A stretch of DNA of 64,000 bases from Parafannyhessea umbonata (GTDB lineage Bacteria > Actinomycetota > Coriobacteriia > Coriobacteriales > Atopobiaceae), in NCBI RefSeq assembly GCF_012844235.1, contig NZ_JABAGR010000005.1:124001-188000 (forward strand), given 5' to 3'. Below are positions 6,401 to 57,614 of the stretch, in pieces. The notes below the pieces were generated by a model. That model ran no database searches. It was not told the DNA's origin and was given only the letters and a program-made list of their open reading frames with translations. The position numbers were made by a program, and so were the translations under genes. The first letter of the stretch is position 1; every line of letters starts with the position of its first letter.

Positions 6401-6547
6401 ACCCGTTAACGTTTATTTATGGGCAAACAACCAATATGTGTGGATACAATAGGTTTCGTTAGGGACGCCACCACAGGGGTTTGCAGAGTGGCGCCGCAAG
6501 TGTTGGGGTGCGACTTCGCACCATGGAAAAACGATCAGGGGTGTCAA

Positions 6548-9316
6548 ATGGCTGAAAAGCACGTGTACAAATTCGGCGTTGACGAAAACGGTAACAACGT
6601 TACCGAGGTCGCCGGCAAGACCGTAGACGAGGCCAAGTGGATCACGGGCGGCAAGGGCGCGAACCTTGCCGAGATGGCGAACATCGGCCTCCCCGTTCCT
6701 CCGGGATTCTCCATCACCTGCCAGACCTGCGTTGCCTACTCCAGCGCTGGCAACGTCTGGCCTGACGGCGTCCTCGACGAGATCGACGAGTACCGCAAGG
6801 ACCTCGAGAAGCGCATGGGCAAGAAGATCGGCGACCCCGACGACCCCCTGCTGGTCTCGGTCCGTTCCGGCGCACCGTTCTCCATGCCCGGCATGATGGA
6901 CACCGTCCTGAACCTCGGCCTGAACGACGAGTCCGTCAACGGCCTCATCAAGCAGACGAACAACGAGCGCTTCGCATGGGACTCCTACCGCCGCTTCGTC
7001 CAGATGTTCTCCGACGTCGTCATGGGCGTCGACGGCCAGCTGTTCGAGGACGCGATCAACGAGAAGAAGGCCGAGAAGGGCGTCAAGCTCGACACCGAGC
7101 TCAACGCTGACGACCTCAAGGACCTGACCGAGACCTTCAAGGGCATCTTCGCCAAGAACGTCGACTCCCAGGCCCACCCCGAGGTCGCGCCGAACGGCGT
7201 CGCGGAGTTCCCGCAGGACCCCTACCTGCAGCTGCGTCTTGCCGAGCAGGCCGTCTTCGGCTCTTGGAACACCGAGCGCGCCGTGCTGTACCGCAAGCAG
7301 AACAAGATTCCCGATGACCTTGGTACCGCCGTCAACGTGCAGGTCATGGTCTTCGGCAACAAGGGCAACACCTCCGCGACCGGCGTCGCCTTCACGCGCA
7401 ACCCCGCCGATGGCACGAACGAGCGCTACGGCGACTTCCTGGTGAACGCGCAGGGCGAGGACGTCGTCGCCGGCATCCGTAACACGGAGCCCATCGCCGA
7501 CCTCCCGAAGACCCCGGGCCTCGAGGAGGCGGGAAAGGAGCTCTATCACGTCTTCGAGATCCTCGAGGATCACTACGCGGACATGATGGACCTCGAGTTC
7601 ACCATCGAGCAGGGCAAGCTCTGGATGCTCCAGACCCGCGTCGGCAAGCGTACCGCGCTCTCCGCGCTGAAGGTCGCCATGCAGATGGTCGACGAGGGCC
7701 GCATCACCCGCGAGCAGGCAATCATGCGCGTCGCCCCGGAGCAGCTCGACCAGCTCCTGCACCCGCAGTTCGACCCGAAGGCCAAGTTCGACGTCGTCGC
7801 GAAGGGCATGAACGCTTCCCCCGGCGCTGCCGTCGGTGCCGTCGTGTTCTCCTCCGATGCCGCCGTTCACTACCACAACATCGAGAAGCCGTGCATCCTC
7901 GTCCGTTGGGAGACCACTCCTGACGACCTGAAGGGCATGGTCGCGGCCGAGGGCATCCTCACCTCTCACGGCGGCAAGACGTCCCACGCGGCCGTCATCG
8001 CCCGTGGCATGGGCGCGCCTTGTGTCTGCGGCGCCGAGGCGCTGAAGATCGACGCGAAGGCAAAGGAGTGCAAGATCTCCGGCACCGACGTCGTCCTGCA
8101 CGAGGGTGACATCATCTCCATCAACGGCACCACGGGCGACATCATCGTCGGCGCAGTGCCCCTGACCCGCCCGGAGCTCACCGGCGACCTCGAGACCATC
8201 CTCGAGTGGGCCGACGACGTCCGTCACGACGCTTCTCGCGGCCGTCTGTTCGGCGTGCGCACCAATGCGGACAACCCCGCGGACGCGCAGCTCTCCGTCG
8301 ACTTCGGCGCCGAGGGCATCGGCCTCGACCGTACCGAGCACATGTTCCTGGGCGACCGCAAGCAGATCATCCAGTCGTTCATCCTCGCCGACAACGACGG
8401 CCAGAAGCAGCAGGCGCTCGGCCAGCTCCTCCAGGCCCAGACCGGCGACTTCGAGGGCATGTTCAAGGCCATGGACGGCAAGACCGTCATCGTGCGTCTG
8501 CTTGACCCGCCCCTGCACGAGTTCCTCGACGACCCGCGCGATCTTGCTGTCGAGATTGCACGCGCCGAGGGCCGTGGCGAGACCGAGGTCCAGCTCAAGG
8601 CCATGCGCGATCGTCTTGCGCGCCTCGACTCCTTCCAGGAGGCCAACCCCATGCTCGGCCTGCGCGGCTGCCGTCTGGGCATCGTGTATCCCGAGCTCAA
8701 CGAAATGCAGGTCCGCGCCATCGCTGGTGCCGCCGCGGCGCTGAAGAAGCAGGGCTTTGATCCCAAGCCCGAGATCATGGTCCCGCTCATCTCCACGGTC
8801 GAGGAGCTCAAGCTCGTCCGCGAGCAGATCGAGGCCGGCGTGCAGGCCGTCGCCGAGGCCGAGGGTGTCGAGCTCAACATCCCCGTCGGCTGCATGATCG
8901 AGCTGCCGCGCGCCGCCGTCACCGCCGACGAGATCGGCGAGTACGCCGACTTCTTCTCCTTCGGCACGAACGACCTAACGCAGACCACCTTCGGATTCTC
9001 GCGCGACGACGTCGAGTCCGCGTTCATTCCGCAGTACCTCGCGAAGAAGATCCTCAAGACGAACCCGTTCGAGACGCTGGACAAGGGTGTCGCCAAGCTC
9101 GTGAAGATGGGCGTCGAGGGCGGCCACAAGGCCAACCCGACCATCGTCTGCGGCGTCTGCGGCGAGACCGGCGGTGATCCGGACTCCATCCAGATGTACT
9201 ACGACCTCGGCCTTGACTACGTGTCTTGCTCGCCGTACCGCGTGCCCATCGCACGCCTCGCGGCTGCCCAGGCCAAGATCAACTCCAACGGCGGTCCCGA
9301 GAAGATCTCCAAGTAG
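6548..9316 (+). CDS. ppdK: Pyruvate, phosphate dikinase
   Basis: 922-aa PEP-forming enzyme (pyruvate + ATP + Pi to PEP + AMP + PPi), used in anaerobes for glycolysis or gluconeogenesis. The N-terminal ATP-grasp domain starts VYKFGVDENG...GGKGANLAEM. The central phosphohistidine domain has GGKTSHAAVIARGMG, with the regulatory Thr next to the catalytic His. The C-terminal TIM barrel has FFSFGTNDLTQTTFGFSRDD and ends VCGVCGETGGDP. ATG 6548 follows a CAGGGG ribosome site; an upstream in-frame stretch from 6419 is not family-like and is probably leader. Codon use is strongly biased, suggesting high expression. Confidence 0.97.
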   Translation: MAEKHVYKFGVDENGNNVTEVAGKTVDEAKWITGGKGANLAEMANIGLPVPPGFSITCQTCVAYSSAGNVWPDGVLDEIDEYRKDLEKRMGKKIGDPDDPLLVSVRSGAPFSMPGMMDTVLNLGLNDESVNGLIKQTNNERFAWDSYRRFVQMFSDVVMGVDGQLFEDAINEKKAEKGVKLDTELNADDLKDLTETFKGIFAKNVDSQAHPEVAPNGVAEFPQDPYLQLRLAEQAVFGSWNTERAVLYRKQNKIPDDLGTAVNVQVMVFGNKGNTSATGVAFTRNPADGTNERYGDFLVNAQGEDVVAGIRNTEPIADLPKTPGLEEAGKELYHVFEILEDHYADMMDLEFTIEQGKLWMLQTRVGKRTALSALKVAMQMVDEGRITREQAIMRVAPEQLDQLLHPQFDPKAKFDVVAKGMNASPGAAVGAVVFSSDAAVHYHNIEKPCILVRWETTPDDLKGMVAAEGILTSHGGKTSHAAVIARGMGAPCVCGAEALKIDAKAKECKISGTDVVLHEGDIISINGTTGDIIVGAVPLTRPELTGDLETILEWADDVRHDASRGRLFGVRTNADNPADAQLSVDFGAEGIGLDRTEHMFLGDRKQIIQSFILADNDGQKQQALGQLLQAQTGDFEGMFKAMDGKTVIVRLLDPPLHEFLDDPRDLAVEIARAEGRGETEVQLKAMRDRLARLDSFQEANPMLGLRGCRLGIVYPELNEMQVRAIAGAAAALKKQGFDPKPEIMVPLISTVEELKLVREQIEAGVQAVAEAEGVELNIPVGCMIELPRAAVTADEIGEYADFFSFGTNDLTQTTFGFSRDDVESAFIPQYLAKKILKTNPFETLDKGVAKLVKMGVEGGHKANPTIVCGVCGETGGDPDSIQMYYDLGLDYVSCSPYRVPIARLAAAQAKINSNGGPEKISK

Positions 9317-9354
9317 TGTCGACCACGTTGGACGCTAGGTCATAGTTTTATGTG

Positions 9355-9382
9355 GGGGAGAAGGACGCGCGTCCTTCTCCCC
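9355..9382 (+). terminator. Perfect 28-base palindrome after ppdK built from the GAGAAGGAC motif
   Basis: The left arm GGGGAGAAGGACGC (9355-9368) is exactly reverse-complementary to 9369-9382. As RNA it would fold into a long hairpin; a clear T-run is lacking, so termination is plausible but unproven. The arm is a copy of the dispersed motif described in the findings. Confidence 0.6.
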
Positions 9383-9415
9383 TTGCCCATATCTGGGCGA
9401 AGGGAGGCATGCGGC

Positions 9416-10459
9416 ATGGGGCTTTTGGGAAGGGAAGCGCAAGAGAGAAGGGAGCACGAGCTCCTGTCCCGCCATGCGGCGTTTTCCGACGAGTCCGCGG
9501 GAAGGCTCGTGCCCGAGGAGCCGGACGAGCTGAGGACGTGCTACCAGCGCGACCGAGACCGCATACTCCACAGCAAGAGCTTCAGGCGTCTCGCTAACAA
9601 GACGCAGGTGTTCCTGGCGCCGGAGGGCGACCACTACCGGACGAGGCTCACACACACGCTCGAGGTGGCTCAGATCGCGCGCGACATCGCAAGGCCGCTT
9701 GGACTGAACGAGGACCTGACCGAGGCAATCGCGCTTGGGCACGACCTGGGCCACACGCCGTTCGGACACGCCGGCGAGCGTGCCCTTCGGGCGGCGATGG
9801 CCCGGAACCTTGGCATCGACCCGCGATCGAGCGCCGCGGAAGGGCTGTTCAGGCACAACGAGCAGAGCGTGCGCGTGGTCAGCCACTTCGAGAGGGACGG
9901 CAGGGGGCTCAACCTCTCGCGCGAGGTGCTCGATGGAATACGTTGCCATGCGGGAAGCCTGCGCGCGGAGACGCTCGAGGGGAGGGTCGTCGCGAAGGCG
10001 GACCGCATAGCGTACGTGACCCACGACATAGACGACGCGGAGCGGGCGGGCCTCCTTACGGAGGAGGTGCTTCCCGAGAAGTGCCGGGACGTGCTCGGGC
10101 ACACGTCCTCGGAGCGCATCAAGACCATGGTGGAGGATGCCGTGACGTGCAGCGCAGGCACCGGCGACGTCGTCATGTCACCGGAGGTGTGGGGCGCCCT
10201 GATGGGCATGAGGGCGTTCTTGTTCTCGAACCTCTACAAGCGGGGAGACGCAAAGTCTGAGGAGCCGAAGGCGGAACACGTGGTCGCGGCGCTGTTTGAC
10301 CACTTCGTGGCGCATGTGGACGAGATACCCGAGGAGTACCACCTGGCAGAGGGGCAGCAGGAGGTCATGGTTGCCGACTACATCAGCTCGATGACAGACC
10401 GCTATGCCATCAGGCTCTACAGGGACATTTTCGTGCCAAGGGCCTGGGGCATGCGATAA
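9416..10459 (+). CDS. dgt: Deoxyguanosinetriphosphate triphosphohydrolase-like HD protein
   Basis: 347-aa HD-domain dNTPase. The metal-binding motif is clear: RTRLTHTLEVAQIAR supplies the first His and ALGHDLGHTPFGHAGE the HD pair and downstream His. The opening YQRDRDRILHSKSFRRLANKTQVF is typical of the dgt-like family. ATG 9416 has GGGAGG eight bases upstream. It lies between ppdK and rplS; Dgt-like proteins often neighbour dnaG, which is not seen here. Substrate preference cannot be judged from sequence. Confidence 0.93.
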   Translation: MGLLGREAQERREHELLSRHAAFSDESAGRLVPEEPDELRTCYQRDRDRILHSKSFRRLANKTQVFLAPEGDHYRTRLTHTLEVAQIARDIARPLGLNEDLTEAIALGHDLGHTPFGHAGERALRAAMARNLGIDPRSSAAEGLFRHNEQSVRVVSHFERDGRGLNLSREVLDGIRCHAGSLRAETLEGRVVAKADRIAYVTHDIDDAERAGLLTEEVLPEKCRDVLGHTSSERIKTMVEDAVTCSAGTGDVVMSPEVWGALMGMRAFLFSNLYKRGDAKSEEPKAEHVVAALFDHFVAHVDEIPEEYHLAEGQQEVMVADYISSMTDRYAIRLYRDIFVPRAWGMR

Positions 10460-12053: not shown

Positions 12054-12632
12054 ATGTGCGACAACGAGTTCTATCAGGATGGCGAAGACGTCTACGGGAA
12101 GGGGCAGCCTGCGTCGGTTCCAGAAGAGTCTTGCGCAGCGGCTGACGGGGGCTATGCGCCCGAAGGCCTAGAGGAGCAGGCTCGGTGTGCGGGCACGGGC
12201 GGGTACCAGGGAGGGGAGAGCCCGGCCCGCAAACCACTCATGGAGATGAGCGCCCGTGAGATCGGCGACATGGGCGAGCACATAGCGTGCTGCTACCTCC
12301 AGAATCACGGATACAGGATCATCTCCCGAAACTGGATGTGCAAGATGGGCGAGGCCGACATAGTCGCCACCCAGCAAGACGAAGACGGCAATGACGTGTG
12401 CGTGCTCGTCGAGGTCAAGACGCGACTTTCGCTCGGCAAGGAAGACGACGGCATGCCAGAGCTTGCCGTGAATGGCGAGAAGCAGAAAAGGTATCGCGGC
12501 ATTGCGGAAACGTTCCTCAGCGTCTCCACACAGTTTCACCAAGTAAGGTTCGACGTGATCGCAATCAAGATAGTCGCGGAGCACTCTGCGAAGCTCAGGC
12601 ATCTCATCGGCGCCTATGAGGCTGACGACTGA
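12054..12632 (+). CDS. yraN: YraN/UPF0102 family endonuclease-like protein
   Basis: The last ~128 residues form the UPF0102 nuclease-like fold: GEHIACCYLQNHGYRIISRNW, GEADIVA and VLVEVKTR match the D-ExK-type restriction-endonuclease-like core. Preceding it is a ~62-residue acidic, Gly-rich stretch of no known family. ATG 12054 has GGGAGGA just upstream; alternative starts at 12240/12246 would give the bare core. It overlaps comM by one base and precedes dprA, the usual yraN-comM-dprA order. Confidence 0.85.
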   Translation: MCDNEFYQDGEDVYGKGQPASVPEESCAAADGGYAPEGLEEQARCAGTGGYQGGESPARKPLMEMSAREIGDMGEHIACCYLQNHGYRIISRNWMCKMGEADIVATQQDEDGNDVCVLVEVKTRLSLGKEDDGMPELAVNGEKQKRYRGIAETFLSVSTQFHQVRFDVIAIKIVAEHSAKLRHLIGAYEADD

Positions 12633-14116
12633 TGGGCGCCGGCGGATCCCTGAGCGTCGCGTCGGCGACTCTCAGGGGCATCGAGGCACTGCCGGTGGAC
12701 GTGGAGATCGCCACGTCGGCGGGGATTCCGGGCATGTCTATCGTCGGGATGCCGGACGGAAGCGTCCTGGAGGCGCGTGCCAGGGTGAGGTGCGCCATAA
12801 AGGCCTCCGGATTCACCGTGTCTAGGCTGAGGTTCACGGTGAACCTGTCGCCAGGGGAGCTCAAGAAGTCGGGGACGGGCTTCGACCTGCCGCTCGCAGT
12901 TGCCATGCTCGCGGTGACGGGGCAGATTCCGACGAGGGGACTCGAGGATTGCATGTTCGTGGGGGAGCTTGCGCTTGACGGCTCGGTAAGTGCCGTAAGA
13001 GGGCTCGTGGCCTATCGGAGGCTCGCCGAGAGAACGGGAAAGACCCTCGTCTGCCCTGCGTCATCCTACGATGGCCTTGGCGAGGGGGTCCTCAACATCG
13101 AACGGCTCGAGGACCTGCGCCGAGGGGTAGGAAGCCTCGAGGCGGGCGGACGGGGAGAGAGGCGCGAAGCCCAGGCGGGGTGTCCGGATCTCGACTATGA
13201 GGACGTGCTCGACCAGGAGGCGGCGAAGCGCGCGCTCGTGATATCCGCTGCGGGAGGGCACGGTCTGCTCATGGTCGGACCTCCCGGCGCGGGAAAATCC
13301 ATGCTCGCGCGTCGGCTTCCGACCATTCTTCCCCCGTTGACGCCTGAGGAGGCCGAGGAGGTGGCCTTGATAGGGTCTGTTGCTGGACGTGCGGGCGGAT
13401 GCCAGGACAACGGCGCAAGGCCATTCAGGGCTCCCCATCACTCGATATCGCAGGCGGGAATGATCGGGGGCGGCAGCCCCGTGCGTCCCGGGGAGGTCAC
13501 CCTTGCGCACCATGGCGTGCTGTTCCTCGACGAACTGCCGGAGTTCTCAACCAACGTGCTGCAGTCGCTGAGGCAGCCATTCGAGGAACACGTGGTGAGG
13601 CTGGTGCGTGCGGACGGACTGTACAGGTTTCCCTGCGACTTCACGTTTCTCGCGGCAGCCAACCCCTGTCCCTGCGGATACCTCGGAGACCCGGCGCACG
13701 CATGCACGTGCGCCCCGGCAAAGGTTGAGCAGTACCAGGCGAGGGTGGGAGGTCCCCTGAAGGACCGCATAGACGTACACATCTTCGTTGCGCGTCCCGA
13801 TTCCAGAAAGGTCGTGGAGGGTGAGCGCGGCATGAGCTCGGCGCAGATGCGCGAACTCGTGCTTGGGGCGCGGGAGTTCAGATCCTGGAGGGAGTCCAGG
13901 CTTGGCCCTGAGGACGAGGAGGGGCTCGATGGCCTGGCATTGGGGGAGGAGGCGGCCTCGGTGCTGGAGTCGATGGCCAGAAGCCTTGGGTTCGGCGGCA
14001 GGTCGATCGTGCGCGTCGCTAGGGTGGCGAGAACGATAGCGGACGTTCGGCAGGGAGACACGGTGTCAAGGGAGGACGTGCTGGAGGCGTGTGCGTACAG
14101 GGATAGGAGGGGATGA
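12632..14116 (+). CDS. comM: YifB/ComM-type Mg-chelatase-like AAA+ ATPase
   Basis: 494-aa ComM family protein; in Haemophilus and relatives ComM is a branch-migration helicase that promotes natural transformation. An N-terminal Lon-protease-like subdomain (VEIATSAGIPGMSIVGMPD, VNLSPGELKKSG) precedes the AAA+ core with Walker A MVGPPGAGKSMLARRLP and Walker B GVLFLDELPEF, then the AANPCPCGYLGD cysteine segment and the C-terminal sensor region. TGATG overlap with yraN. Followed by dprA, so this is a DNA-processing pair. Confidence 0.93.
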   Translation: MGAGGSLSVASATLRGIEALPVDVEIATSAGIPGMSIVGMPDGSVLEARARVRCAIKASGFTVSRLRFTVNLSPGELKKSGTGFDLPLAVAMLAVTGQIPTRGLEDCMFVGELALDGSVSAVRGLVAYRRLAERTGKTLVCPASSYDGLGEGVLNIERLEDLRRGVGSLEAGGRGERREAQAGCPDLDYEDVLDQEAAKRALVISAAGGHGLLMVGPPGAGKSMLARRLPTILPPLTPEEAEEVALIGSVAGRAGGCQDNGARPFRAPHHSISQAGMIGGGSPVRPGEVTLAHHGVLFLDELPEFSTNVLQSLRQPFEEHVVRLVRADGLYRFPCDFTFLAAANPCPCGYLGDPAHACTCAPAKVEQYQARVGGPLKDRIDVHIFVARPDSRKVVEGERGMSSAQMRELVLGAREFRSWRESRLGPEDEEGLDGLALGEEAASVLESMARSLGFGGRSIVRVARVARTIADVRQGDTVSREDVLEACAYRDRRG

Positions 14117-30233: not shown

Positions 30234-30309
30234 GGGGAATTAGCTCAGTTGGGAGAGCGCATGACTGGCAGTCATGAGGTCAGGGGTTCGAATCCCCTAT
30301 TCTCCACCA
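30234..30309 (+). tRNA. tRNA-Ala(GGC), copy 1
   Basis: Acceptor GGGGAAT pairs with ATTCTCC, leaving the G3-U70 wobble that marks alanine tRNAs. The anticodon loop CTGGCAG gives GGC. CCA is encoded. Confidence 0.95.
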
Positions 30310-30356
30310 CGTAGACTCTGGGGCGGCGGCTGTGGTCGCCGCCCTTTCCAGTTTCC

Positions 30357-30432
30357 GGGCCTATGGCGCAACGGTTAGCGCAGGGGACTCATAATCCCTG
30401 GGTTGGGAGTTCGAATCTCTCTGGGCCCACCA
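30357..30432 (+). tRNA. tRNA-Ile2(CAT, lysidine type), copy 1
   Basis: Anticodon loop CTCATAA. Acceptor GGGCCTA carries C4-G69 and C5-G68, and the anticodon stem has a 27-43 G-U pair, as in E. coli tRNA-Ile2 recognised by TilS. Elongator tRNA-Met is the alternative reading of CAT. CCA is encoded. Confidence 0.8.
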
Positions 30433-30440
30433 CATGCGAC

Positions 30441-30466
30441 GGGACCCCCTCGGGGGTCCCTTTTTT
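30441..30466 (+). terminator. Terminator of tRNA unit 1
   Basis: GGGACCCC/GGGGTCCC stem with CTCG loop, followed by six T residues. Confidence 0.9.
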
Positions 30467-30494
30467 GTTGTCGGAAATTGTCAAAACTTTTCCG

Positions 30495-30522
30495 TTGACT
30501 CAAGTCCGCGTTTTGGTAATAT
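30495..30522 (+). promoter_or_regulatory. Promoter of second tRNA-Ala/tRNA-Ile2 unit
   Basis: TTGACT (30495-30500), 16-base spacer, TAATAT (30517-30522). The spacing matches copy 1, but the -35 region lies outside the duplicated block. Confidence 0.6.
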
Positions 30523-30541
30523 ATCTCTCGCACCAACGAAC

Positions 30542-30617
30542 GGGGAATTAGCTCAGTTGGGAGAGCGCATGACTGGCAGTCATGAGGTCAGGGGTTCGAA
30601 TCCCCTATTCTCCACCA
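30542..30617 (+). tRNA. tRNA-Ala(GGC), copy 2
   Basis: Identical to the copy at 30234-30309. Confidence 0.95.
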
Positions 30618-30664
30618 CGTAGACTCTGGGGCGGCGGCTGTGGTCGCCGCCCTTTCCAGTTTCC

Positions 30665-30740
30665 GGGCCTATGGCGCAACGGTTAGCGCAGGGGACTCAT
30701 AATCCCTGGGTTGGGAGTTCGAATCTCTCTGGGCCCACCA
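30665..30740 (+). tRNA. tRNA-Ile2(CAT, lysidine type), copy 2
   Basis: Identical to the copy at 30357-30432; same Ile2/Met caveat. Confidence 0.8.
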
Positions 30741-57498: not shown

Positions 57499-57575
<77 letters not shown>

Positions 57576-57584
57576 CGAAACCGC

Positions 57585-57614
57585 AGGTCAGAGGCTTAAG
57601 CCTCTGACCTTTTT
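57585..57614 (+). terminator. Terminator after tRNA-Pro
   Basis: AGGTCAGAGGCTT (57585-57597) is perfectly complementary to the following 13 bases, then TTTT. Confidence 0.85.

Follow-up and report, generated by a model that had tools for sequence, protein, structure and literature searches.

Locus and neighbouring genes

The window analysed here is a stretch of 64,000 bp (C23:124001-188000) from a genome of 2.32 Mb (G000). The region under study lies between two ORFs, ppdK and dgt, which are on one strand and 99 bp apart. Its features are as follows.

6419..9316, + strand: ppdK (pyruvate phosphate dikinase, presumed), from the ORF; stop codon at 9314-9316
9355..9366, + strand: 5′ arm GGGGAGAAGGAC of the ppdK 3′ hairpin, from the fold; identical in both sister genomes
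9367..9370, + strand: loop GCGC of the ppdK 3′ hairpin; both sisters have another loop
9371..9382, + strand: 3′ arm GTCCTTCTCCCC of the ppdK 3′ hairpin, from the fold
9383..9400, + strand: weak T-tract TTGCCCATAT and a second small abutting hairpin, UUGCCCA-UAUC-UGGGCGA, from the fold
9416..10459, + strand: dgt (dNTP triphosphohydrolase-like, presumed), from the sequence; likely start ATG 9416

The name ppdK comes from the initial annotation and is kept here as an assumption. Relatives of this ORF were found in 129 of the 140 family genomes, and the closest named ones among the matches listed were those of Olsenella massiliensis (88%) and Atopobium sp. Marseille-P4126 (86%); on this ground the genome is classed here as Atopobiaceae-type. 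The name dgt, given in the same annotation, is likewise presumed; tblastn search showed homologues with 66–94% identity at 23 of the 29 other loci. An ORF with a start at 9350 was rejected as too long a reading of dgt, the ATG at 9416 being the likelier start. A few genes past dgt, the ORF at 12632-14116 looks by eye like a ComM/YifB-type Mg-chelatase-like ATPase.

A perfect palindrome between ppdK and dgt

A 28-base palindrome with GAGAAGGAC in its arm had been claimed for this gap. We found it at exactly 9355-9382, where GGGGAGAAGGACGCGCGTCCTTCTCCCC is self-complementary over 14+14 bases, reads the same on both strands and allows no extension. It starts 38 nt past the ppdK stop codon. No other perfect palindrome of the window is as long, the runner-up having 26 nt (57585-57610), and an independent-base estimate at the GC content of the window gives about 0.001 expected perfect palindromes of at least 28 bases in 64 kb. 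Folded as RNA, the palindrome forms a 12-bp stem with a 4-nt loop. The folding energy of a 43-nt piece containing it was −25.7 kcal/mol (z −4.67), which was equalled by none of 200 shuffles, and the whole ppdK-dgt gap also folded better than all 200 shuffles. The palindrome had been described as the sole strong structure of the gap; strong it is, but it does not stand alone, since the weaker second hairpin (9383-9400) adjoins it. The window has 13 copies of the word GAGAAGGAC, where 0.65 would be expected, and two of them lie inside the palindrome.

Conservation and covariation of the hairpin

In the two sister genomes of the same genus (G001 and G002), all 24 arm bases are unchanged and the flanks have diverged. 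The loop reads GCGC in the window, GTGC in G002, and TCGC in G001. Because a DNA palindrome would be expected to retain its centre, these changed loops fit an RNA hairpin or terminator with a free loop, not a DNA palindrome.

Our search showed a G/purine-rich hairpin 23–51 nt past the ppdK stop in all 30 family genomes nearest by ppdK, as located with an expression composed from arms already known. Arms of the GGGAG/GGGAA type were present in 27 of these 30 genomes and in 6 of 20 more distant ones. dgt lies downstream of ppdK in 24 of the 30 loci; in the remaining six it was not found and the hairpin is still present. This indicates that the hairpin belongs to ppdK. Eight further ppdK loci, whose downstream DNA was read by eye, have similar hairpins with different arm sequences. 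No convincing hairpin was found at the expected place past ppdK in three of 50 genomes (G055, G003, and G059). The folding energies over the 50 genomes prove little by themselves, because 230 GC-rich bases will often yield a stable best hairpin by chance.

For covariation, 16 alignable hairpins were hand-chosen from the 50 for similar arms. Among them, 95% of the cells pair, and six of the ten pairs have changed on both sides. Double-change cells numbered 17 against 7.6 in shuffles, with none of 500 shuffles as high; neither the paired cells nor the covariation score was matched by any of the 500. When the partner was slid along the alignment, all three values fell.

Probable termination of the ppdK transcript

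The hairpin is stable and G+C-rich, lies near the stop codon independent of the next gene, and shows compensatory pairing changes, as a terminator would. The proposal of a terminator-like hairpin is thus borne out by its position, conservation and covariation and by the changed loops in the sisters. These properties, together with the stem, can be read off the sequences; from them we infer that the hairpin most likely terminates transcription, and its efficiency is judged in the same way. When RNA polymerase copies the second arm, a 12-bp hairpin of G/purine against C/pyrimidine would form in the RNA behind it, and this hairpin would destabilise the transcription complex before dgt is read.

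The ten bases past the outer stem contain three T in the window, four in G002, and eight in G001, where the tail reads TTCTTGTTTTT. A simple terminator scan did not list the ppdK hairpin in the window, and by the strict classical definition, with a T-tract directly behind the stem, the window copy falls short. A reasonable guess for this copy, given its weak T-tract, is that it terminates partially or with the help of a factor. Like intrinsic terminators, the ppdK hairpin has a G+C-rich stem and a 4-nt loop soon after the stop codon, a T-rich tail in sister G001, and pairing kept through covariation. It differs from them in the weak T-tract of the window copy and in the abutting second hairpin, by which it comes nearer to the poly-U-less I-shaped and paired (double) hairpin terminators, described as a class in PMC8355165. 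The ppdK palindrome itself is an ordinary conserved terminator-like hairpin. Taken alone it matters little, as the likely end mark of the ppdK transcript.

The dispersed motif

A sample of 464 kb of G000, made of the window and 20 stretches, was used for word counts. The commonest 9-mer in it was GGCGAGAAG, and GGGCGAGAAGGAC occurred 34 times against 0.2 expected. The dispersed motif noted earlier is therefore real, and it is bigger than had been seen. Its 13-bp consensus is GGGCGAGAAGRRC, with positions 4–10 and 13 nearly invariant. At position 4, the base preceding GAGAAGRRC in a GGG context, we counted C 112 times, G 3 times, and A and T once each (664 kb, with the ppdK site masked). Whole-genome counts of GCGAGAAGGAC were 261 in G000, 345 in G001, and 228 in G002; genus g33 has 50–466 per genome, mostly more than 200, and many other genera have a handful. 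By these counts the motif is lineage-limited within the family, with dialects around GCGAGAAGNNC in other genera. Another over-represented word in the 464 kb was GCTTTCCGGC / GCCGGAAAGC, with 20 copies against 0.9 expected.

Codon usage was rejected as a full account of GAGAAGGAC. In-frame GAG-AAG-GAC occurred 54 times against 15 from codon frequencies, the peptide GEK 85 times against 13–62 for its permutations, and the 13-mer lies far above the Markov expectation; 31 of 86 GGGCGAGAAGRRC sites were non-coding-like, against 15% of random sites. A coding bias of the motif persists: 39 of the 86 sites stand in one sense frame, which reads Gly-Glu-Lys-(Asp/Gly/Ser/Asn).

Short, over-represented, dispersed and strand-polar motifs include the FtsK-orienting KOPS/SRS and Chi, the SRS of Bacillus being GAGAAGGG. 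The motif described here is likewise short, over-represented and dispersed, but it is not strand-polar and its inverted pairs are enriched. No strand polarity was found in ten 20-kb stretches of G002, where both strands are mixed, or in the whole-genome counts of 182 and 189. One site listing showed + sites only. We took this as listing order, because the forward sites are even across the listed 1.35 Mb and the strands are mixed in G002. A KOPS- or Chi-like polar motif was rejected for this lack of polarity.

Inverted motif pairs elsewhere in the genome

The initial annotation had proposed a genome-wide search for further inverted pairs as its own test, and the search found them. G000 contains 13 exact inward pairs of the form GCGAGAAG N3-16 CTTCTCGC; with 648 and 575 single copies, 2.25 would be expected (P ~8e-7). 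Two of the 13 (L180 and L188) were called coding and 11 non-coding-like by a codon model of our own making, which was trained on G000. The latter are as follows.

L186, L190, L192, L194, L196, L198, and L242-L246: 11 non-coding motif-pair hairpins of G000, called by the codon model

The stems of these 11 pairs are extended by 2–8 outer base pairs, and eight of them have at least four T in nine bases on one side, compared with 18% of random non-coding blocks. Judged by sequence, the proposed motif-pair hairpin thus holds at about a dozen other sites in G000. Outward pairs are likewise enriched in this genome (8 against 2.25 expected). The 464-kb sample of G000 had one inward pair against 0.44 expected, a result matched by 34 of 88 8-mer controls of like abundance, and no inward motif pair was found in a 200-kb sample of G002. 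The pair excess, not visible in these samples, therefore rests on the whole-genome counts.

In other genomes, inward pairs numbered 12–14 in the sisters, 27 against 2.6 expected in G056, and 11 against 0.6 in G025. The motif-rich genus g33 showed a modest excess of 2–3 fold; G084 had 15 against 6.1 and G097 14 against 4.8. No pair excess was found in g34; G114 had two inward pairs against 1.7 expected. Two or three of the 27 pairs in G056 (L195, L249, and perhaps L206) were called coding by the same model trained on G000. The spacer is exactly 6 in 23 of the 27, and in 19 of these 23 the central C and G are kept. They are the closing C of each 11-base copy, unpaired in the loop, and the copies seem to abut. 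Since this C and G are conserved although they are loop bases, the motif itself seems to be kept in the G056 pairs, beyond what the stem would call for. In G025 and its relatives the spacer is 6 or 10. What is of interest in this analysis is the motif-pair hairpins, and the class merits separate study.

Interpretation of the ppdK palindrome

We consider it very probable that the palindrome is a conserved 3′-end hairpin of the ppdK transcript, most likely an intrinsic (Rho-independent-type) terminator, and that its GAGAAGGAC arm is not a motif copy. The arm had been equated with the dispersed motif, and this was not supported. It carries a G at position 4, which in the motif is strictly conserved as C (112 C, 3 G), so that the ppdK arms fail as the exact copies expected of an inverted pair of DNA uptake sequences (DUS/USS). 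In addition, the ppdK hairpins of relatives start with GGGGGAG without being motif copies, in motif-poor and motif-rich genera alike. It is nevertheless conceivable, though unlikely, that the hairpin is a motif-pair member one base off the consensus, kept both as a terminator and as a DNA (uptake-like) signal. Both arms contain GAGAAGGAC, and the upstream arm agrees with the 13-mer at 12 of 13 positions; G000 has two GAGAAGGAC N3-8 GTCCTTCTC pairs against 0.18 expected, pairs armed with GGGGAGAAGGAC occur away from ppdK in G049 and G088, and exact motif pairs form hairpins elsewhere in G000. However, the single mismatch sits on the strictly conserved C, motif-poor genera share the GGGGGAG arms, and GAGAAG was found in none of 47 ppdK hairpins sampled outside the genus of the window (g1), including all nine from motif-rich g33, which lack the motif there. 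The likeness of the arm to the motif is probably a coincidence. On the simplest reading, the ppdK terminator has long had a purine-rich arm, and GAGAAGGAC is one of the states this arm has taken and no copy of GGGCGAGAAGRRC. Against coincidence counts the finding that the GAGAAGGAC arm is present in all three genomes of the motif-rich genus of the window, and there only. The motif may have drawn the g1 arm toward itself; this would be one event, with little weight either way.

Two other readings do without the motif. With ppdK and dgt on one strand, a gap of 99 bp and a weak T-tract, the hairpin might stabilise or process a 3′ end between co-transcribed genes and so give unequal transcript levels, without termination. 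We think this improbable in view of the T-rich tails in sister G001 and many other relatives, and of a next gene that was not always found to be dgt. The perfect dyad about 33 bp ahead of the likely dgt start could also be taken for a palindromic DNA operator of a dimeric regulator of dgt. This is very improbable, as the palindromic centre is lost in both sisters, six of the 30 loci have the hairpin with no dgt found behind it, and the arms drift with compensating changes; a protein-binding dyad was rejected because of the loop changes.

Comparison with DNA uptake sequences

Inverted DUS/USS pairs serve as terminators in Neisseria and Pasteurellaceae (PMC2397512, PMC1852404, and PMC3630211); in Table 5 of PMC1852404, N. 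meningitidis Z2491 has 226 inward and 5 outward pairs, and H. influenzae has 50 inward and 25 outward. The two inverted arms of the ppdK hairpin share GAGAAGGAC with the dispersed motif, as in such pairs, but break its strictly conserved base. The exact motif pairs of G000 resemble those of Neisseria and Haemophilus: their hairpins are accompanied by T-runs, and more of the pairs point inward (13) than outward (8). They differ in that there are few pairs per genome, the uptake role of the motif is putative, and the host is an actinobacterium of the Atopobiaceae type. The likeness of the motif-pair class to DUS/USS pairs is good by analogy, and an uptake role is a possible candidate. Since the ComEC family is nearly universal (137 of the 140 family genomes), it is of no use as a discriminator for this role.

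A wider proposal, which we put forward as tentative and rather doubtful, is that several genera of the Atopobiaceae type use the 13-bp motif (GGGCGAGAAGRRC, with dialects around GCGAGAAGNNC) as a DNA uptake sequence and have co-opted its inverted pairs as terminators; the ppdK palindrome would then be a member one base off or a convergent look-alike. A literature search on competence and uptake motifs in this group, which covered few subscription papers, found nothing on point, and the matches listed for the motif-core letters were all unrelated. In this actinobacterial family, a motif that is strongly over-represented and lineage-limited gives hairpins in non-coding DNA where two copies are inverted, as with the uptake sequences of Neisseria and Haemophilus. 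If the motif is an uptake sequence, it lies outside Neisseria and Pasteurellaceae, the groups where uptake sequences are described, and a single-membrane lineage would have evolved sequence-selective uptake of DNA.

Other hairpins in the window

The 26-base perfect palindrome at 57585-57610, AGGTCAGAGGCTTAAGCCTCTGACCT, has a TTAA centre and a TTTTC tail and lies directly after a tRNA gene (57499-57572). It is an ordinary terminator-like hairpin built like that of ppdK, and perfect palindromes as terminator-like hairpins are therefore not peculiar to the ppdK site. The window also has four tRNA genes at 30234-30737. They form two pairs that score alike, and the hairpin GGGGCGGCGGC tgtg GTCGCCGCCCT appears twice there, at 30320 and again at 30628. 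The paired genes and the repeated hairpin suggest that about 308 bp were duplicated in tandem.
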